Notes under the pieces: model-generated
What the model saw: the letters and a program-made list of their open reading frames with translations, nothing else
Told to the model about the DNA's origin: nothing
Database searches by the model: none
Made by a program: the position numbers and the translations under genes
In this document: one piece after another, positions 1,376 through 10,551 of the stretch
How the letters are laid out: the number at the start of each line of letters is the position of its first letter
Position numbering within the stretch: position 1 is the first letter of the stretch
DNA from: Sedimentisphaerales bacterium
GTDB taxonomy: Bacteria > Planctomycetota > Phycisphaerae > Sedimentisphaerales > SG8-4
Direction: 5' to 3'
Length of the DNA stretch: 13,226 nucleotides
Assembly (NCBI GenBank): GCA_016928975.1
Contig: JAFGJR010000216.1
Coordinates: 1-13,226, forward strand

Positions 1376-1638
1376 GTCACACTGGCACCCGGAGTTACCC
1401 GCTCGTGTAATTACGACAGATTAAGACGGGAAAGGCAAGGGGCTGGGCGATTTTTGATTTTCGATTTGTGATTGGGGGGAGAGTCCGGGGCGGCGCGATT
1501 GCGGCCCCAGATCGGTGTCTGGGGTGACATGATTTTGAATTGCAGACTGCGCGCCGGGCGGTTTCTCCCCTCCTATGTTCCGGCCTTGCCTCCTGTCCTC
1601 TGCATCCCGCCGTCTCTGCGTGAGGAAGAAGGAAGTGG

Positions 1639-1658
1639 ATTCCCGCCTCCGCGGGAAT
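1639..1658. repeat. REP-like palindrome, copy 1
   Basis: ATTCCCGC-CTCC-GCGGGAAT is a perfect 8-bp inverted repeat with a 4-nt loop, followed by GACATGCGCG. A diverged second copy with compensated stem bases is at 2492-2511 and has the same GACATGCGCG flank. The paired changes (C to T on one arm, G to A on the other) argue that the stem itself is maintained. Confidence 0.7.
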
Positions 1659-1780
1659 GACATGCGCGGGAGTCTTTCGCGTGGTTCGCGATTGAGAATC
1701 GGCGTTCATCAGCGTCTATCTGCGGTTACCTCTTTTCCTCCACGTCCCTCGCCGTCCTCTGCGGCTACATGGCAGATGGC

Positions 1781-1811
1781 ATCGGTGTGCATGGCACACC
1801 CTACGAGAACC
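1781..1811 (+). repeat. 31-bp direct repeat, copy A (left of the MNT gene)
   Basis: Starts ATCGGTGTGCATGGC and runs to CGAGAAC-C. Copy B at 2256-2286 has the same orientation and differs at three positions. The two copies bracket the small nucleotidyltransferase gene: copy A ends about 30 bp beyond its stop codon. Only the left part of the longer unit seen at 2256-2370 is recognisable here. Confidence 0.7.
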
Positions 1812-1841
1812 GGTGTGAATCCGTCTTGAAGAAATCCCCTG

Positions 1842-2171
1842 TCACGCGGCGACTCCCTCTTCCTTGATGGTCCTGTGGATGGCGAACCGGCCGGCCTTCA
1901 GGTCCGCCTCTTCGGCGAAGAAGAAGAACACGGGCGTGCCATAGTCGAGGCTCAGGTCGGCTCCTAATAGGCTGGTTCGCTCGTGCTCGGCGAGGCGGTT
2001 GGGGATGTGATCGAGAATGACGGCGATATCGATGTCGCTGTCGGGCGTCAGTTGGTCCCTTGCGGCTGAGCCGTAGAGATACACGGCGCGGAGGCGCTCC
2101 CCATAGACAGACCTGAGCCCTTGGCGAGCCCTGACGGCGATTTCCAGTGCCTCTTCCCGCGTCGCAACCAT
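1842..2171 (-). CDS. MNT-type minimal nucleotidyltransferase domain protein
   Basis: A 109-residue protein with the nucleotidyltransferase signature G34-S35 followed by D46-x-D48 (GSAARD....DSDIDIAV), which places a metal-bound NTP. A possible third acidic residue lies in the later LSLDYG strand. Size and motifs match the MntA antitoxin half of MNT/HEPN toxin-antitoxin pairs; known MntA proteins AMPylate the HEPN RNase toxin. I chose the ATG at 2171 because AGGA sits 8 nt upstream; a TTG at 2189 in the same frame has no ribosome-binding site. No HEPN-like gene is next to it on either side, so it may be an orphan or act on a distant partner. It sits between two copies of a 31-bp direct repeat. 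The function as an antitoxin is inference; the fold assignment is firm. Confidence 0.8.
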   Translation of the reverse strand: MVATREEALEIAVRARQGLRSVYGERLRAVYLYGSAARDQLTPDSDIDIAVILDHIPNRLAEHERTSLLGADLSLDYGTPVFFFFAEEADLKAGRFAIHRTIKEEGVAA

Positions 2172-2255
2172 CGATAAGTTCCTGCTCAAGAGCCCGTTGA
2201 ATCACCTGTATGGTAGCACGCCTGGAGACTACACGCAACAAAAGACACGAGAGGG

Positions 2256-2370
2256 ATCGGTGTGCATGGCGCACCCTGCGAGAATCCACGGAATCCGTGG
2301 AATCCGTGTCCGGGACTCCGTACCTCTTCCAGATGAGTCGCCGTAAGTCTCGTTCTGGCAAGTGTTTATC
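2256..2370 (+). repeat. Long dispersed repeat unit, copy B (includes the 31-bp direct repeat)
   Basis: Begins with the 31-bp direct repeat (2256-2286), continues through an iterated GGAATCCGTGGAATCCGTG stretch, and ends with a segment containing CCGTAAGTCT and TGTTTAT (2332-2370). A related unit at 3231-3335 has the same order of blocks: CACC..CGAGAATCC first, then CCGTAAGTCT 60-66 nt later. The last 39-nt block matches at about 31 positions between the two copies by eye. Confidence 0.6.
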
Positions 2371-2491
2371 TGTGCGTCTGGGGTTGCGGAGGCGTTGTTG
2401 GCCGCTGGTTGTTGGTTTCTTGTTGAGAACCTCAGCGGACCTCTGGGACCCCCGCTTGCGCGAGGGCAAGCCTTTGCGGTGAAAAACCTGG

Positions 2492-2511
2492 ATTCCTGCT
2501 TTCGCAGGAAT
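2492..2511. repeat. REP-like palindrome, copy 2
   Basis: ATTCCTGC-TTTC-GCAGGAAT is a perfect 8-bp inverted repeat with a 4-nt loop, preceded by a GG and followed by GACATGCGCG as in copy 1 (1639-1658). Confidence 0.7.
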
Positions 2512-2714
2512 GACATGCGCGTGTGGCCCCTCTTCAGGTGGTTTGCATTCATCCGTGGTTGCGCGTGATCTCTGTACTCTCTGTGGCAGACAATCTCTCC
2601 GTGGTTTCATTAGTCCTTGTGACATAGGAGGTTGGCAGCGTAGAAAAGCCGCGTCTGGTCTCGGTATTCTCTTGACATGGGTGTATGGTGGATGTACCAT
2701 ATCTCGTGGAAAAC

Positions 2715-2745
2715 GCGAAATCCGAATATCGAAATCCGAAACGAA
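2715..2745. repeat. Short direct repeat CGAAATCCGAA
   Basis: CGAAATCCGAA occurs twice within about 25 bases, separated by TAT, then followed by ACGAACG. It resembles the low-complexity GATTTT/CGAAAT runs at about 1450-1470 read on the other strand. No gene overlaps it. Confidence 0.45.
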
Positions 2746-2843
2746 CGAGGAGGAGTGGGACAATGGAATGCTGTGATAGTGGAATGGCGGGTTTCGGGGT
2801 CATCCCAGCCGAGGGCGACTGGGCCACATCGGGGATGGCCCGC

Positions 2844-3146
2844 TGTGCGAAACAAAGCCAATTCCGGGGAGCCAGCGGGAGCCGGGAGGTGAGGGGGCCC
2901 GGTATGCGAAACAAAGCCAATTCCAGGAGATGGGCGGCGAGGAGCGGGTCCGCCGATGACAGGTTGTGCGAAACAAAGCTAAATCTGGGAAGGATGGGAC
3001 ATCTGGAGAAGAGCGAACGTCGCGAGCGGAGCGACTCCGCGGGAGAGTGGAGTGTGCGAAACAAAGCCAATTCCGTGGCTGGGCTTCACAGGACGACCGA
3101 AGCGAGCGGGGACGCTCGCCCTGCCGTGCGAAACAAAGCCAATTTG
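2844..3146 (+). repeat. Array of five ~22-bp repeats, unit TGTGCGAAACAAAGCCAATT
   Basis: Copies start at 2844, 2903, 2965, 3053 and 3125, all in the same orientation. The core GCGAAACAAAGC is invariant in all five; the flanks CCAATTCC vary (copy 3 reads CTAAATCT, copy 5 CCAATTTG). Start-to-start distances are 59, 62, 88 and 72 nt. Intervening sequences are unrelated, G-rich and of unequal length. The copies fall in different reading frames, so a protein repeat is excluded. No palindrome is evident in the unit. Confidence 0.8.
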
Positions 3147-3230
3147 TCCTGCCGGATCAGTGGCGTGGAGGCCACGCCGCATAGGTGTCGAGTGCATCGG
3201 GCAATGGAGACAGCAGAAGTGTCTGTGACA

Positions 3231-3335
3231 CACCGCACGAGAATCCGCGGGAATCCCCGGAACCAGTGTCGAACGGGGTCCAGTCCTTAACTTCGGGGTG
3301 AATTGCCGTAAGTCTTGTTGTGACAAATGTTTATA
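3231..3335 (+). repeat. Long dispersed repeat unit, copy C
   Basis: Related to 2272-2370. It starts CACCGCACGAGAATCC (CACCCTGCGAGAATCC in the other copy) and ends with a block containing GCCGTAAGTCT and ATGTTTAT at 3297-3335. Spacing between the two blocks is 66 nt here and 60 nt there. Its function is unknown. Confidence 0.55.
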
Positions 3336-3412
3336 TGCACGCGTCAGACAACACGGGTGCTGACGGTTGTTGGCTGATGGCTGCTGGAAGACCGCCGCGG
3401 GCTGCGTTTGGG

Positions 3413-4042: not shown

Positions 4043-4054
4043 CGTCGTTTGTCT

Positions 4055-6367
4055 ATGAGAACTCTGGCTGCACTGATGGTGATCGTTGGGGGACTGGCTG
4101 GCATTGCGTGGCCGGCGGCTCATGCGCTGCTCGGTGAGGCCAACGCGGTGGTCTACACTGCGGCCGAGGTGGGCGACGACAGTCTCCGCCGAGTGATCAG
4201 CCGGGCGGTGGAGGCGGCCGCGGCGGGCGGCGATTCCCTGCCGCTGGTCATCGACTATCCGTTGGATCAGGCCGTATTCCCGCCGGATATGGCGGCGCCG
4301 ACATTCGTTTGGACCGATCCGGCCCCAAAGGCCGACACGTGGCTGATCGACGTAGCCGGGACCGACACGAATGACCATCTTCACATCCTCACGCAAGGAG
4401 CTACGCCGCCCCGGGCCCATGACGACGACCCCCGGACGGCCTCGGCGGCCGCCATCGCGTACAGTCCGCCGGCCCCGGCGAGCCCGCTGAGACGATGGAG
4501 GCCGGACGAACGGACCTGGGAACGAGTCAGACGCTTGTCCGGCGGGTCGGGCACGACGGTCACGATCATAGGTTTGTGCAGCGACGAGCCCGGCAGAATC
4601 CTCTCGCGAGAGAGCATGCGGTTCAGCGTCTCGCCGGACGCGGTCGGCGCTCCGGTCTTCTACCGCGACGTGCCGCTGCCCTTCCGCCACACGCTTGCCA
4701 ACGTCGAGTCGATTCGCTGGCGGCTGGGGGAGGTCTCGTCGCACAAGCCGCCGACCCTGCTGACCGGCATGAAGGTCTGCGGCAATTGCCACTCGTTCAC
4801 GGCCGACGGCAGGACCCTCGCAATGGACGTCGACTACGGCAGCGACAAAGGGTCGTACGTCATCGCCAATGTCGAGCCGCAGACCGTCTTGCACAGGGAC
4901 AGCGTGATCTCCTGGAGCGACTATCGCCGGGACGACAAGGAGCCGACCTTCGGGCTGCTGGCCCAGATCTCGCCCGATGGGCGGTATGTCATCAGCACGG
5001 TGAAGGACCGCTCCGTGTTCGCGGCGGTGGACGAGCTGGACTACTCGCAGCGGTTCTTTCCGGTCGCAGGCATCCTGGCCGTCTACGACCGGCAGACAAA
5101 GCAGTTCTTCTCGCTCAAAGGCGCCGACGACCGGCGGTACGTGCAGAGCAATCCGGTGTGGAGCCCGGACGGCAAGACGATCCTGTTCGCCCGCAGCGAT
5201 TCGTACACGCTCAAGGGACTCAAGGACGCCACGTCGGCCGTCGTGGAAAAGGACGAAGTGGCCGAGTTCTTCGAGGGCGGCAAGAAGTTCCGCTACGACC
5301 TCTACCGACTCGACTTCAACGAGGGACGAGGCGGCGAGCCGGCACCTCTGCCCGGGGCCTCCGGCAACGGCGTGAGCAATTATTTCCCGCGATACTCCCC
5401 CGACGGCAAGTGGATCGTGTTCTGCCAGAGCGACACGTTCATGCTGTTGCGCCCCGACAGCACGTTGTACATCACGCCCTCGGCGGGCGGAACGCCTCGA
5501 AAGATGCGATGCAATTTCCCCGGCAGGATGAATTCCTGGCATAGCTGGTCGCCGAACGGCAGGTGGCTGGTCTTCGCATCCAAGGCGGCCGGACCGTTCA
5601 CCCAGCTCTGGCTGACGCATATCGACGCCGAGGGCAACGACAGTCCTGCTGTGCTCCTGGAGCACTTCACGGCTGCCGATCGTGCCGCCAACATCCCGGA
5701 ATTCGTCAACGTCAGGCCCGAGCAATTTGCCCGAATTCGCCAGGAGTTCGCCGACTATTACACGCATTACCGGATCGGGATCGGCCACGAACAGCGTCAC
5801 GAGTACGTCAAGGCCATCGAGGAGTTCAAGCTGGCCCTGAGCGAAGAGCCGAACCACGTGGAGTCTTTGTACCTGCTGGCCTCGTGCCTGGCCCGGTTGA
5901 ACCGGGAGCCGGAGGCGATGTCCCATGCTCGGAAGGCTGCTTCGCTGGTTCCGGACAGTCCGATGGTGCATGGCCTGCTGGGCGGCCTGCTGTGCACCAT
6001 CGGGCAGTACCGCGAGGCCCGGGCCCATCTGGAGGCCGCCCACGCGGCGAACGCGGCGGATGTGAGCGTCGCGAACAATCTGGCCTGGCTGCTAGCCACC
6101 TGTCCCGACGGGGCCTGCCGGGATGGGACTCGGGCGGTGCGGCTGGCCGAGTGGGCGTGCAACGCCACATCGTTCAAATCACCTCCGTTGCTGGACAGTC
6201 TGGCCACTGCCTACGCCGAATCGGGCCGGTTTGAGGAGGCCGTGCGCACCGCTCGCCAAGCCATCGAGATCGTCCAAAGCAATCCGAAGGCATCGACGGT
6301 GACGCTCGAATCCCGCCTGAGCCTGTATCTGGCCGGCGAGCCGTACCGCGAGCCGGCTCGCAAGTAG
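4055..6367 (+). CDS. Secreted TolB-like beta-propeller protein with one CxxCH heme site and C-terminal TPRs
   Basis: A 770-residue protein. Residues 1-24 form a signal peptide (basic start, hydrophobic core, A-H-A end), so it acts outside the cytoplasm. Residues ~30-240 are an N-terminal beta-rich domain. C242-G-N-C245-H246 is a single c-type heme motif in CGNCHSFTADGR, at the entry of a PD40/WD40-like propeller with four clear blades marked by SPDG or SPNG at ~306, 370, 448 and 499. Residues ~568-755 are tetratricopeptide repeats. Proteins with this CxxCHSF.DG plus PD40 layout occur in Bacteroidetes and Planctomycetes; their role is not established, though a heme-dependent redox or scaffold role is plausible. 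I chose the ATG at 4055; the in-frame TTG at 4049 adds two residues and has no support. There is no Shine-Dalgarno sequence, consistent with a near-leaderless mRNA. Confidence 0.85.
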   Translation: MRTLAALMVIVGGLAGIAWPAAHALLGEANAVVYTAAEVGDDSLRRVISRAVEAAAAGGDSLPLVIDYPLDQAVFPPDMAAPTFVWTDPAPKADTWLIDVAGTDTNDHLHILTQGATPPRAHDDDPRTASAAAIAYSPPAPASPLRRWRPDERTWERVRRLSGGSGTTVTIIGLCSDEPGRILSRESMRFSVSPDAVGAPVFYRDVPLPFRHTLANVESIRWRLGEVSSHKPPTLLTGMKVCGNCHSFTADGRTLAMDVDYGSDKGSYVIANVEPQTVLHRDSVISWSDYRRDDKEPTFGLLAQISPDGRYVISTVKDRSVFAAVDELDYSQRFFPVAGILAVYDRQTKQFFSLKGADDRRYVQSNPVWSPDGKTILFARSDSYTLKGLKDATSAVVEKDEVAEFFEGGKKFRYDLYRLDFNEGRGGEPAPLPGASGNGVSNYFPRYSPDGKWIVFCQSDTFMLLRPDSTLYITPSAGGTPRKMRCNFPGRMNSWHSWSPNGRWLVFASKAAGPFTQLWLTHIDAEGNDSPAVLLEHFTAADRAANIPEFVNVRPEQFARIRQEFADYYTHYRIGIGHEQRHEYVKAIEEFKLALSEEPNHVESLYLLASCLARLNREPEAMSHARKAASLVPDSPMVHGLLGGLLCTIGQYREARAHLEAAHAANAADVSVANNLAWLLATCPDGACRDGTRAVRLAEWACNATSFKSPPLLDSLATAYAESGRFEEAVRTARQAIEIVQSNPKASTVTLESRLSLYLAGEPYREPARK

Positions 6368-6603: not shown

Positions 6604-9600
6604 ATGAAGAGACTTACAATTGCATTGGGTGCTGTCGTCGTAGTCGCCGCCTTCTCCGTGCCGTCACTTGGGGCCATCGTCTATTCGGGCTCCCAGAATG
6701 TGACTCTCGCGCTGAACCCCATGTCCCCCATGGACTCCAAGACGATCCCGTTGGCCGGCATGTCCACTGACTGGGCCGACTTTCGCGTGGAGCTGTGGCT
6801 GGACATGAGCAACATGGGGATGATGAGCGGGATGACGGGCGGGATGATCGACGGGATGACCATGATGCCCATGCGAACCAAGCTGGCGATCTATGCACCT
6901 GGCAGCATGGGGATGGGCATGGGCATGGGGATGAGCATGGGAGGCGTTGTGGCCCTTCGGGGCCTGGCTCTGAACCTGCCTCTGTCGGCCATGGTTGGTG
7001 CGGATTCCTTCTTTGACGTATGGCCGGAGATCTACGGCTCCGGCGAGTTCCGTGAGGACGGCGGGTACATCGGCCTTCGCACAGGGATGGGCCAGTACGG
7101 CTGGCTGCACATGCTCAGCCAGTCCAACGTCGGGACCGACACACATGCCGTGACGTTCGACGGATGGGCATATGAGGACCAGCCGGGTACACCGATCCGG
7201 ACGGGGGAGGGAGGACCGTGCGATTGGAGGCCCGGCGCGCCTCATAAGATGCACTGGCCGCAACTGCCCGATCTTGGCTTCACGGGCATTGACATCAGCC
7301 TGGAGCAAGCGACTCTGGCGGACGATTTCAGGTGCACCGCCACAGGCCCGGTCCGCGACATTCACATCTGGGGCTCCTTCCGGGACGACGTCCTGCCCAA
7401 GGAGGGTCCCGACAGTCTGACCTTCGAGATCAGCATCCACTCCGATGTGCCGGCAAGCGGCAAGAGGTGGAGCCTGCCGGGCGATCGGCTTTGGACGAGG
7501 ACGTTCAAGCCTGGCGAGTACACGGTCCGCCGGGTCCACAATGGACCGGAGGATTGGTACGACCCGGCCAGGGGTCTCTATGTGCCGCAGAATCACCGGT
7601 ATGCTTTCCAGTACAACTTCTGCATCGACCGCGATCCCTTCACACAGCGGGAAGGAAGCATCTACTGGCTGGCGGTGACGGAATCGTCGGCGACAGGGAA
7701 CTACAGTTTCGGATGGAAGACCGCCGTCCGAGAGTCCCGCTGGAACGATGACGCCGTATACGATCAGTCCGGTTGGATGGAGATGGCCTATCCGAAAGGC
7801 CACAAGTACGGCGGCGAGTCACTGGACCTGGCGTTCGTCATTACCGACGGCCTCGACCTTCTGGCGAACCGGGATCTCGGCGATGCACCGGATAGCTCCA
7901 ACAGTGTCGCCGGGGCACAAATGCTGGCCTACCCCAGCGGCGTCTTCGCCCATTTCCCGACTGTCTACTTGGCGGGTTCCCCGCCCTTCGGGCCGATCCA
8001 TCTATACCCGCGCGACATGTACTACCTGGGCAAGTGGGTCAGCCTGGAGAGCGAGGCGGACATCGGGCTCGACGACGACGGAGTCACGAACATCGATCCG
8101 CTGAACGATGCCGCCGACCGCGACGGGGCCGACGACGGCCTGCAACTGCCGGTCCCCATGCCGTACTGCCAGCGAACGACTCTGAACTACACGGTCACCG
8201 TCACGAACGCCGCGGCGCAAGAGGCGTATGTGAACGTCTGGTGCGACTGGAATCGCGATGGCGATTGGGACGACATCCTGCTGTGCCCGGACGGAGATCG
8301 CGTGCCGGAGTGGGCCGTGCAGAACGACAAGCCTGCCTTTGCAGGTGTCGGCACGTATTCGCTCACCACCTCGCCATTCAAATGCTGGCATCCCGTCAAG
8401 GACAGGATCGACCCGATCTGGGTGCGGATCTCGATTGCCGAGCAGGAGCACCTGCCGTCTATCATCGTACCGGGCGCTGCGCCTGGTATTGAAGGCACCG
8501 GGCCCAGAGACGGCTACAAGTACGGCGAGACAGAGGACTACTACATTCGGCCGACGGACGAGCCGCCGGCCGTCAAGTACGATTGGGGCGATGCTCCGGA
8601 GAGCGCGGCGGCTCCCGGCTATCCGACGCTGGCCGCCAGCAACGGCGCGCGACACGTGCCCACCGGTCCTTGGCTGGGCGATGAGAACGGCATGCCTGAC
8701 TCCGAGCCGGACGGCCAACCTCAGGCGGACGCCCTCGGGGATGATAGCACAGCAAACGACGATGAGAACGGCGTGTGGTGGCTGCCCCTGTTCCCCGGTC
8801 TGCCGGCGGCGACGGGCGTTGTGGTTGGCGGCGGCGGAGGCGTGGTCCAGGCATGGATCGACTTCAACAGCGATCACACCTGGCAAAGCAGCGAGAAGAT
8901 CTTCGACGGCTTCCTGTCGGATGGAATCCACACAATCAACTTCACCACCCCCACGACAGCGGTGATCGGGCAGACGTTCGCACGGTTCCGCATCAGCAGG
9001 GAGGGCGGACTGAATCCGGAGGGTGAAGCCAAGGATGGAGAGGTCGAAGATCACAGGCTTCGGATCCTGGAGCCTCCTGAAGCACAGAAGCAGTGGTGCC
9101 AGCGGCCGGACCTGACGCCGCAAGGCATCGACATCCGCGTGGACGGCGACGAGAGCCTGCCTCGGAGGATCGCCGACGACTTCGAGTGCAGGCAGCCTGG
9201 ACGGCTGACGCACGTCCGCCTGTGGGGCTCGTGGAAGGGCGACAGGAAGGGCGAGCTCAAGAGGCTGCACCTGCGCATCCATCCGGACGATCCGGTCGGA
9301 CCGGACGGGGCGGACGCGAGGAACAAGTACTCCAAGCCCGGCCCGGGGACCCTCTGGGAAGGAGAGTTCCTCACCGGTCAATTCATCGAAACGCTGCACC
9401 ATACCGTCGGGATCGACGGCGAATGGTGGTGGGATCCTGCCTCGGGCGACGCGGTTCCGGGCGGTGACAAACAGGTCTGGCAGCTCGACATCGACGTCTC
9501 GCCCGAGAAGGCGTTCCGGCAGGAAGGCACGTCGGAGAGCCCGCGGATCTACTGGCTGGAGGTCACGGCCGAGACCGCGGATGGGCAATTCGGCTGGAAG

Positions 9601-10551
9601 ACGCGATGGTGGCCCGAGCACTTCATGGATGACGCGGTCTTCTACGGCGGCGCGAACGACCCGCCCGTTTGGAGGGAGCTGTTCTACCCGCACGGTCACA
9701 AGTACTACGCCAACGAGCGGAACTCCATCGACATGGCCTTCTGCCTGGAGTTCGAGGTGGACACGGTCCAGCCCACCTCGCAGCCGACGAGCCTGACGCA
9801 GTGTCCGGTCGTGCAGACGACGTGCCCGGCAACGGTCACGGAGTGCCAGACGGTGAGGACGGTTTGCCCTGCCGTGGAGACTTCTTGTCCGGCCGTCGAC
9901 ACCGAGTGTCCGGCAATATCCACGCGGTGCCCGCTGACGCCGACGAAGTGCCCGGCGACCGCTACTGAATGCCAGGTGATTCAGACGGAATGTCCGGCCG
10001 TGTACACCAAGTGTCCCACGAGCGCGACGAAGTGCCCGGCAGCGGAGACACGTTGTCCGGTGGAGTCCACCAAATGCCCACCGACGGCCACTGAATGTCA
10101 GACGGTCGAGACGCAGTGCCCAACGGTGCACACCAAGTGCCCCACGAGCGACACGACGTGCCCCGCCGCGGAGACACGCTGTCCGGTGGAGTCCACCAAA
10201 TGCCCGCCGACGGCCACTGAATGCCAGACGGTCGAGACGCAGTGCCCGACAGTGTACACCAAGTGTCCCACGAGCCCGACGAAGTGTCCTGTCATAAGCA
10301 CGCGGTGCCCGGAGGAGGATACCCGGTGTCCCGAAGAGAGCACGCAGTGTCCGCCGGTCCAGACGCAGTGTCCGCAGCCGGTTACCACATGCGCGTCGCC
10401 GACGGCGTGCCCCGGCGCCGCGTGCGGGAACCCGGAGTTGCAGCCGGTCTACAGTATCGGCACGTGGGTGCTGGGATCGGGTTGTCCGACCGTTGAAACC
10501 ATGTGCCGTACCGTGGACGACTACTTGATCCTGGCGCAGATGGTGGAGTAG
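6604..10551 (+). CDS. Large secreted multidomain protein with Met-rich insert, GEVED-like domains and Cys-heptad stalk
   Basis: 1315 residues. The start ATG at 6604 has GGAGGA 7 nt upstream and opens a clear signal peptide (residues 1-23, cut near SLG-A). Order of parts: residues ~24-200, a beta-rich domain ending WAYEDQPGTPI, broken by a Met-rich stretch (68-112); ~213-415, a domain with PDL..TGIDI, ADDF.C and HIWGS motifs (resembles the planctomycete domain I recall as DUF7901; name from memory); 424-650, a DLGDAPDS...GETEDYY domain; 660-821, a second GEVED-type domain (DWGDAPE...GEVEDH) with Asp-rich probable Ca sites; ~828-1050, a second copy of the ADDF domain; a Pro/Thr linker; 1067-1274, 28 exact heptads CPxxxTx then closing cysteines; C1294 and C1301 form one more heptad. 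No membrane anchor or sorting signal is seen at the end. Likely a surface or extracellular matrix protein; the function is unknown. Confidence 0.85.
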   Translation: MKRLTIALGAVVVVAAFSVPSLGAIVYSGSQNVTLALNPMSPMDSKTIPLAGMSTDWADFRVELWLDMSNMGMMSGMTGGMIDGMTMMPMRTKLAIYAPGSMGMGMGMGMSMGGVVALRGLALNLPLSAMVGADSFFDVWPEIYGSGEFREDGGYIGLRTGMGQYGWLHMLSQSNVGTDTHAVTFDGWAYEDQPGTPIRTGEGGPCDWRPGAPHKMHWPQLPDLGFTGIDISLEQATLADDFRCTATGPVRDIHIWGSFRDDVLPKEGPDSLTFEISIHSDVPASGKRWSLPGDRLWTRTFKPGEYTVRRVHNGPEDWYDPARGLYVPQNHRYAFQYNFCIDRDPFTQREGSIYWLAVTESSATGNYSFGWKTAVRESRWNDDAVYDQSGWMEMAYPKGHKYGGESLDLAFVITDGLDLLANRDLGDAPDSSNSVAGAQMLAYPSGVFAHFPTVYLAGSPPFGPIHLYPRDMYYLGKWVSLESEADIGLDDDGVTNIDPLNDAADRDGADDGLQLPVPMPYCQRTTLNYTVTVTNAAAQEAYVNVWCDWNRDGDWDDILLCPDGDRVPEWAVQNDKPAFAGVGTYSLTTSPFKCWHPVKDRIDPIWVRISIAEQEHLPSIIVPGAAPGIEGTGPRDGYKYGETEDYYIRPTDEPPAVKYDWGDAPESAAAPGYPTLAASNGARHVPTGPWLGDENGMPDSEPDGQPQADALGDDSTANDDENGVWWLPLFPGLPAATGVVVGGGGGVVQAWIDFNSDHTWQSSEKIFDGFLSDGIHTINFTTPTTAVIGQTFARFRISREGGLNPEGEAKDGEVEDHRLRILEPPEAQKQWCQRPDLTPQGIDIRVDGDESLPRRIADDFECRQPGRLTHVRLWGSWKGDRKGELKRLHLRIHPDDPVGPDGADARNKYSKPGPGTLWEGEFLTGQFIETLHHTVGIDGEWWWDPASGDAVPGGDKQVWQLDIDVSPEKAFRQEGTSESPRIYWLEVTAETADGQFGWKTRWWPEHFMDDAVFYGGANDPPVWRELFYPHGHKYYANERNSIDMAFCLEFEVDTVQPTSQPTSLTQCPVVQTTCPATVTECQTVRTVCPAVETSCPAVDTECPAISTRCPLTPTKCPATATECQVIQTECPAVYTKCPTSATKCPAAETRCPVESTKCPPTATECQTVETQCPTVHTKCPTSDTTCPAAETRCPVESTKCPPTATECQTVETQCPTVYTKCPTSPTKCPVISTRCPEEDTRCPEESTQCPPVQTQCPQPVTTCASPTACPGAACGNPELQPVYSIGTWVLGSGCPTVETMCRTVDDYLILAQMVE
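6805..6945 (+). repeat. Met/Gly-rich coding repeat within the large secreted protein
   Basis: Residues 68-114. Sixteen methionines fall in residues 68-112, in two clusters (68-90 and 102-112) with MxxM, MxM and MGMGMG spacing, separated by a normal beta strand (KLAIYAP). At the DNA level it is an iterated ATGGGCATGGG pattern, prone to slippage. It interrupts an otherwise ordinary beta-rich domain. Confidence 0.8.
9802..10389 (+). repeat. 28 tandem Cys heptads (CPxxxTx), 42-residue super-repeat
   Basis: From residue 1067 every seventh residue is Cys, 28 times without a slip. Position 2 is Pro except in heptads 3, 9, 15 and 21, where it is Gln: an exact period of six heptads (42 residues, 126 bp). 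Position 6 is Thr in all 28. The blocks at 10015-10140 and 10141-10266 are nearly identical in DNA, a recent duplication; earlier blocks are more diverged. Position 7 is often Lys, Arg, Glu or Gln. Confidence 0.9.

Follow-up and report, generated by a model that had tools for sequence, protein, structure and literature searches.

A threonine-cysteine heptad array at the C-terminal end of a DUF7901/GEVED protein from a Sedimentisphaerales bacterium

We analyzed a 13,226-nucleotide stretch of DNA from a Sedimentisphaerales bacterium (phylum Planctomycetota; assembly GCA_016928975.1, contig JAFGJR010000216.1), referred to below as the window. On its forward strand, the coding sequence (CDS) at 6604–10551 specifies a 1315-residue protein whose C-terminal part is an array of 28 heptads that each begin with Cys. 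The ATG at 6604 is preceded by GGAG, and we preferred it to the start of a longer TTG-initiated open reading frame (ORF) from 6427 because a signal-like start, MKRLTIALGAVVVVAAFSVPSLGA (6604–6675), follows that ATG; this N-terminus was judged signal-peptide-like by eye and by a crude signal-peptide rule. A Pfam scan at E ≤ 1 identified two DUF7901 domains (PF25470), at 7249–7845 (residues 216–414) and 9091–9747, two GEVED domains (PF20009), at 8227–8547 (E 1.1e-7, with a piece of the protein as query) and 8845–9060 (residues 748–819), and no other family. The heptads occupy 9802–10389 (residues 1067–1262) and are followed by a tail (10390–10548) that contains five further Cys residues, a conserved motif, CPTVETMCRTVDDY (10483–10524), and a C-terminal helix predicted by AlphaFold2 (10513–10545). 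All of these features lie on the forward strand. Neither the array nor the tail matched Pfam, no NCBIfam family was over the cut-off for the protein, and no PDB chain matched the array or the whole protein by sequence. By these searches, Pfam, NCBIfam, and the PDB sequences hold no match for the array module.

The array consists of 28 consecutive 21-nucleotide units in frame with the ATG at 6604. Cys opens every unit, Thr occupies position 6 in 28/28, and position 2 holds Pro in 24/28, the exceptions being Gln in heptads 3, 9, 15, and 21; an initial annotation had described just this, with CPxxxTx heptads in exact register, Gln at position 2 only in those four copies, and Thr kept in all 28. 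Residue 1263, directly after the array, is a 29th in-register Cys, and the array contains no CxxC pairs. The pattern of six successive C....T. heptads has 23 matches in the window, every one inside the array, and 0 matches across 200 dinucleotide shuffles. Tandem-repeat analysis of the DNA, which the initial annotation had called for, recovered a period of 126 bp, or six heptads (Tandem Repeats Finder; 9905–10317, 3.3 copies, 77% matches).

Compared pairwise, the six-heptad blocks are 60%–83% identical in DNA. The closest pair is 83% identical in nucleotides and 86% in amino acids, so the claim that two 126 bp blocks are near-identical holds for part of a block but not for the whole of it. The Cys codons of the array are divided between TGC (15) and TGT (13). 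In six block pairs, the codons for Cys1 and Thr6 showed 4–8 synonymous and 0 non-synonymous differences per pair, and the same pairs showed 6–17 non-synonymous differences when all positions were counted. Because the Cys and Thr codons differ only synonymously between blocks, selection must hold the pattern in the protein, and we conclude that the Cys and Thr residues of the array are under purifying selection. Given the block identities and the exclusively synonymous changes at these two positions, we also rejected a young DNA minisatellite read as protein.

A search with the array and tail returned 185 proteins at E ≤ 0.001, and the figures in this paragraph are for the best 120 of them, the window protein included. 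Most of these contain DUF7901 and GEVED, and their named sources are Sedimentisphaerales, Phycisphaeraceae, or Planctomycetota/Planctomycetes. Their 5782 seven-residue Cys-to-Cys units have Pro at position 2 in 90% of cases and Thr at position 6 in 97%, with C-P-[PA]-V-[ED]-T-[QKR] as the commonest residues, and the number of units per protein ranges from 25 to 106 (median 44). Free drift of heptad number and of the Cys and Thr positions among homologues had been named in advance as the outcome that would speak against a structured array; in this copy-number comparison, heptad number drifts but Cys and Thr do not.

Residues 560–1055 were used in a second search, which gave 1463 relatives among the scored candidates. 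When 120 of these were examined, 75 had at least six units and 45 had none or one; dockerin, Por_Secre_tail, or FlgD_ig is listed somewhere in 12 of the 45. A search with an array-only protein found 70 proteins. The pooled set comprised 265 proteins, of which 218 had at least eight units. The array lies in the C-terminal third in 171 of the 218, in the middle in 34, and in the N-terminal third in 13, and across the relatives arrays adjoin other extracellular domain types, which supports the proposed role as a spacer or tail. The crude signal-peptide rule was positive for 170 of the 218 and negative for 32, and 16 did not start with Met; this result and the signal-like start of the window protein indicate that the array protein is probably exported, in keeping with the extracellular location first suggested for it. 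Four array-dominated proteins also have a signal-like start (L178, L179, L180, and L219); Pfam found nothing in the first three, and its sole match in L219 is to MSG and falls inside the repeats. In P0005, the array occurs together with a multicopper oxidase.

Several other loci were noted individually. In one genome, two array genes of ~300 codons each lie side by side (L165, 1147–3031), and their tails differ from the DUF7901 type. In L185 (genome G124), the array is followed by a dockerin-like segment, as judged by eye. In L068 (4459–8000), the array resumes in a second frame, as if an indel had split the ORF inside the repeat, and this may be an assembly error. A verrucomicrobial frame of 1593 residues (L074, 1–4779) has 145 Cys residues with another Cys seven residues on. 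In L015 (2521–3237), a 239-residue ORF has 12 in-register Cys residues and then a segment that appears cytochrome-c-like by eye, with CxCH instead of CxxCH and no Pfam family. In the open-licence literature, we found nothing on DUF7901, on CPxxxT-type motif strings, or on Sedimentisphaerales in combination with cysteine-rich proteins.

The arrays contain units of unusual length, and we sorted distinct Cys-to-Cys units that were flanked by normal units according to length. Thr was at position −2 relative to the next Cys in 91% of units of length 5 (23 units), 96% of length 6 (50), 98% of length 7 (2903), and 100% of lengths 8 (85), 9 (77), 10 (14), and 11 (14). Thr was at fixed position 6 in only 0%–21% of units of length other than 7, and Pro followed Cys in 86% of seven-residue units and in 13%–71% of units of other lengths. 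Since Thr tracks the next Cys when the unit length changes, T-x-C is the invariant node and the length of the loop between nodes is free. The T-x-C ladder of the initial annotation is thereby borne out and sharpened: what is conserved is T-x-C, in most cases with Pro next, and the pitch is loose. A spacing of seven residues between Cys predominates strongly, and spacings of 5, 6, 8, 9, 10, and 11 are tolerated, mostly uncompensated. There are 362 uncompensated odd single spacings altogether, with spacings of 5, 6, 8, and 9 occurring 28, 75, 109, and 102 times. We rejected a fixed 14-residue frame: the 30 instances of 6+8 spacing, which reduce to 14 distinct strings and are largely variants of a single block, stand against the 362 uncompensated singles. 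The total number of Cys residues is even in 64 and odd in 39 of 103 complete relatives (29 to 24 among 53 clusters), and the array and tail of the window protein contain 33.

Six heptads had also been proposed as the evolving unit, and this stands for the window gene and its near relatives but not for the module at large. Heptads 3, 9, 15, and 21 are among those without Pro in P0046 and P0069 (the comparison does not show residue identity), as are heptads 9, 15, and 21 in P0099. Six heptads was the best lag in 17 of 82 long arrays. In a period test of 130 arrays, each with at least 20 in-register Cys residues, 71 had a significant period. Among these 71, 16 arrays had a fundamental period of six heptads, 11 of eight, 10 of two, 8 of four, and 7 of five. 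We therefore read the 42-residue super-period as a local duplication unit of this gene and its near relatives, not as a module-wide one. Even periods outnumbered odd periods by 49 to 22, by 29 to 15 once the arrays were clustered on the remainder of the protein, and, with looser cut-offs, by 12 to 5 and 6 to 2. This weak bias hints that pairs of nodes act as a unit, for example through loops from C-n to C-n+1; an alternation of residue class between neighboring odd and even heptads was not seen.

In two AlphaFold2 runs, the array was modeled as coil with a predicted local distance difference test (pLDDT) score of about 30–47 and no fold. In the second run, the adjoining DUF7901 domain, which is jelly-roll/lectin-like by structure comparison, was mostly above 90 and the array was about 40. 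The C-terminal helix was the best-modeled part after DUF7901, with scores of 82 and 77 for the last two ten-residue blocks, and the tail motif, as C..[VIL][EDN]..C.[ST][VIL].[DE]Y or close to it, was found in 45 proteins of the pooled set. The structure prediction that had been proposed as a check thus gave no regular fold for the array, whose Cys and Thr residues are maintained across relatives.

We scanned contigs for six C....T. heptads and obtained at least 116 stretches, the genuineness of which was judged by eye (CPxxxTx, many distinct units). Among the matches listed, 11 were judged genuine: eight titled Planctomycetota or below (L012, L015, L031, L032, L046, L068, L093, and L099) and three titled Verrucomicrobiota or below (L010, L074, and L102). 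The other 105 listed were set aside as minisatellite-like, as having units without Pro, or as having broken frames. In the order of genome G002 (locus L032, titled Sedimentisphaerales), 22 of 161 genomes matched the array query at E ≤ 1e-10, and in each of the 22 a locus has eight or more CP...[TS] units in a single frame. The phylum sample yielded matches at E ≤ 0.001 in 35 of 392 genomes; seven were counted genuine (G002, G051, G056, G060, G090, G113, and G124), and the other 28 matches, which were read in part, were weaker and mostly of low identity. Nine of 288 genomes matched at E ≤ 1e-8 in the phylum of G005 (L074, titled Verrucomicrobia), and G005, G724, and G825 were genuine. Searches of the phyla of L019 (titled Kapaibacterium) and L096 (titled Chloroflexi), which had no positive control, gave 0/198 and 0/201 at E ≤ 1e-12. 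There was no array match in phages. Six plasmid records at 33%–35% identity (four Borrelia, one Haematobacter, and one Streptomyces, the last antisense within a giant CDS) were not taken as relatives. On viral contigs, 41 pattern loci were found and none was accepted as a genuine array, because the frames were short, the distinct units few, or Pro missing; L132 is a borderline case, with seven distinct C....T. units, all lacking Pro, in a frame of 314 residues.

Our leading interpretation, which we hold with middling confidence, is that the array serves a fibrillar-adhesin-like surface protein as its stalk, a flexible tether with the conserved tail as its likely attachment end. The DUF7901 and GEVED domains toward the N-terminus would form the presenting or binding part. 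The T-x-C-P array would be an extended tether whose length changes by recombination of 21n bp repeats, and the tail (CPxVExxCxTVxDYL and the short helix) would be the likely point of attachment. Each T-x-C-P node would offer a single thiol within an extended segment capped by Pro. Once exported, the thiols would most likely be oxidized, between neighboring nodes (CPxxxTxC loops) and/or between chains, which would give a tough cross-linked stalk. We infer export, disulfides, surface attachment, and adhesion, the disulfides from the signal-like start and the selection on Cys.

As described in excerpts from the literature, fibrillar adhesins have an adhesive region, a repetitive stalk of variable repeat number that tends to predicted disorder, and an anchor (PMC9210967, PMC8286594). 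The window protein resembles fibrillar adhesins and periscope proteins in its large size (1315 residues), its signal-like start, its N-terminal putative binding domains, including the lectin-like DUF7901 fold, and its GEVED domains (PMC8286594, PMC9210967, PMC10952558). Two further resemblances are the repetitive stalk, which varies in copy number and has no confidently predicted fold, and the C-terminal end as the likely anchor. It differs in that fibrillar-adhesin stalks, in the same excerpts, are built of repeating protein domains, whereas the unit here is a T-x-C-P node, spaced at about seven residues and not represented in Pfam. No known cell-surface anchor family was found in the array protein with Pfam or NCBIfam, and the excerpted account reports that nearly half of fibrillar adhesins have no known anchor (PMC8286594).

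Several points weigh against this interpretation. Pfam found no CshA_NR2-type adhesive domain in the array protein; in an excerpted description, GEVED invariably partners CshA_NR2 in the GEVED/CshA family and is also called a stalk domain (PMC10952558). Low pLDDT only suggests disorder, since repeats confuse alignments and inter-chain bonds are outside the model; Foldseek gave no match at E ≤ 0.001, and the top rows of the structural comparison were a mixture of phage, capsid, and lectin chains. A loose tail rule holds for 87 of 178 proteins with an array ending at most 110 residues from the C-terminus. Dockerin is also present in 10 of the 120 array proteins from the array and tail search, which means that the array is not just a substitute for that anchor. 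After clustering, the bias toward even periods is weak, and with a weak lean toward even Cys totals and 33 Cys residues in array plus tail, pairing within one chain is no more than a possibility.

A more tentative proposal, well behind the stalk in our estimation, is that the array is a matrix cross-linker, in which inter-chain disulfides would join many array chains into a proteinaceous wall or sheath in planctomycetes outside Planctomycetales, as YTV proteins are thought to do within Planctomycetales. The YTV wall proteins are likewise cysteine-rich and planctomycete and are the nearest analog in kind, not in sequence; the excerpted report places them solely in Planctomycetales (PMC8567305), which we counted in favor of a cross-linker elsewhere, and the array protein has no YTV match in Pfam (E ≤ 1). 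The array-dominated proteins with a signal-like start also favor it, as do odd spacings and odd Cys totals, which are compatible with bonds between chains. However, strong hits in 22/161 genomes of the order and arrays judged genuine in 7/392 of the phylum sample are sparse for a general wall component, and in the pooled set most arrays form the tail of a multidomain protein, in part a consequence of the queries used.

We consider improbable the regular solenoid or rod, with a fixed pitch and a one-sided T-x-C face, that the initial annotation had put forward. In an extended strand, Thr and Cys two residues apart would point to the same side, a Pro that follows Cys is suited to a turn, and the predominance of seven-residue spacing also fits. 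In insect antifreeze solenoids, Thr and Cys form a regular ladder, but their motif and pitch differ from those of the array, for which no solenoid was predicted and no PDB sequence match was found. The array was a low-confidence coil in both AlphaFold2 runs although the adjoining domain was modeled confidently in the second, so a rigid solenoid is not supported, and the mostly uncompensated single spacings of 5, 6, 8, and 9, with loop length free, weaken a fixed-pitch rod.

Slimmer still are the chances of a metal or redox reservoir, in which extracellular thiols would bind soft metals or pass electrons: P0005 pairs the array with a multicopper oxidase, the gene upstream in the window has a CxxCH motif and is syntenic in L239 and L243, and L015 ends in the cytochrome-c-like segment, but that segment has CxCH and no Pfam family, the window array has no CxxC pairs, and many array partners are non-redox. 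We give just as little weight to an export or sorting signal, in which a dedicated C-terminal sorting system would recognize and perhaps cleave the array and tail: the usual C-terminal position, the conserved tail with its Tyr-containing helix, and the dockerin or Por_Secre_tail of some array-less relatives fit it, but the 34 middle and 13 N-terminal arrays do not, and non-C-terminal arrays sometimes occur with Por_Secre_tail or dockerin (P0235 and P0242).

Ranthipeptides of the SCIFF type are Cys-Thr thioether peptides, and Thr five residues after Cys is the majority spacing in the array too. Here, however, Thr tracks the next and not the preceding Cys (91%–100% at −2 of the next Cys in distinct units, against 0%–21% at position 6 in off-length units), and a SCIFF-type Cys-to-Thr crosslink is not supported. 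No radical-SAM family was found among the eight window proteins scanned.

The gene upstream of the array gene (4049–6367, forward strand) encodes PD40 repeats, TPR, and the one CxxCH motif. It adjoins the array gene in L239 and L243 too, at 70%–72% identity (2/17 stretches), and a partial 45% match is present at the edge of L240 in the opposite orientation. Downstream of the array gene are tsaD, an AIRC-domain gene that we take to be LarB-like, and an NAD(P)H-hydrate dehydratase gene. Elsewhere in the window, a repeat with the core TGCGAAACAAAGC has five intergenic copies spaced 59–88 bp apart (2834–3152), and several pairs of similar stretches at 1636–3387, four of them ~850–970 bp apart, suggest a duplicated intergenic block. 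Near the window edge (132–1277), a QatC/QueC-like part is joined to a DpnII/MboI-like domain and is perhaps a piece of a defence locus.

More speculatively, and with low probability, T-x-C-P could be a general covalent-bonding node of extracellular proteins in bacteria, a mobile module of Planctomycetota and Verrucomicrobiota that would build exported domains into a thiol-cross-linked surface fabric, with the conserved Thr at −2 of each Cys guiding oxidation or carrying a modification (e.g., a glycan) that is read together with Cys. The strongly selected cysteine repeat defines a class of proteins from planctomycetes and verrucomicrobia, and disulfides may hold their stalks. It is a candidate for a cysteine-based surface architecture in planctomycetes outside Planctomycetales, where YTV proteins are, in the excerpted report, said to be absent (PMC8567305).
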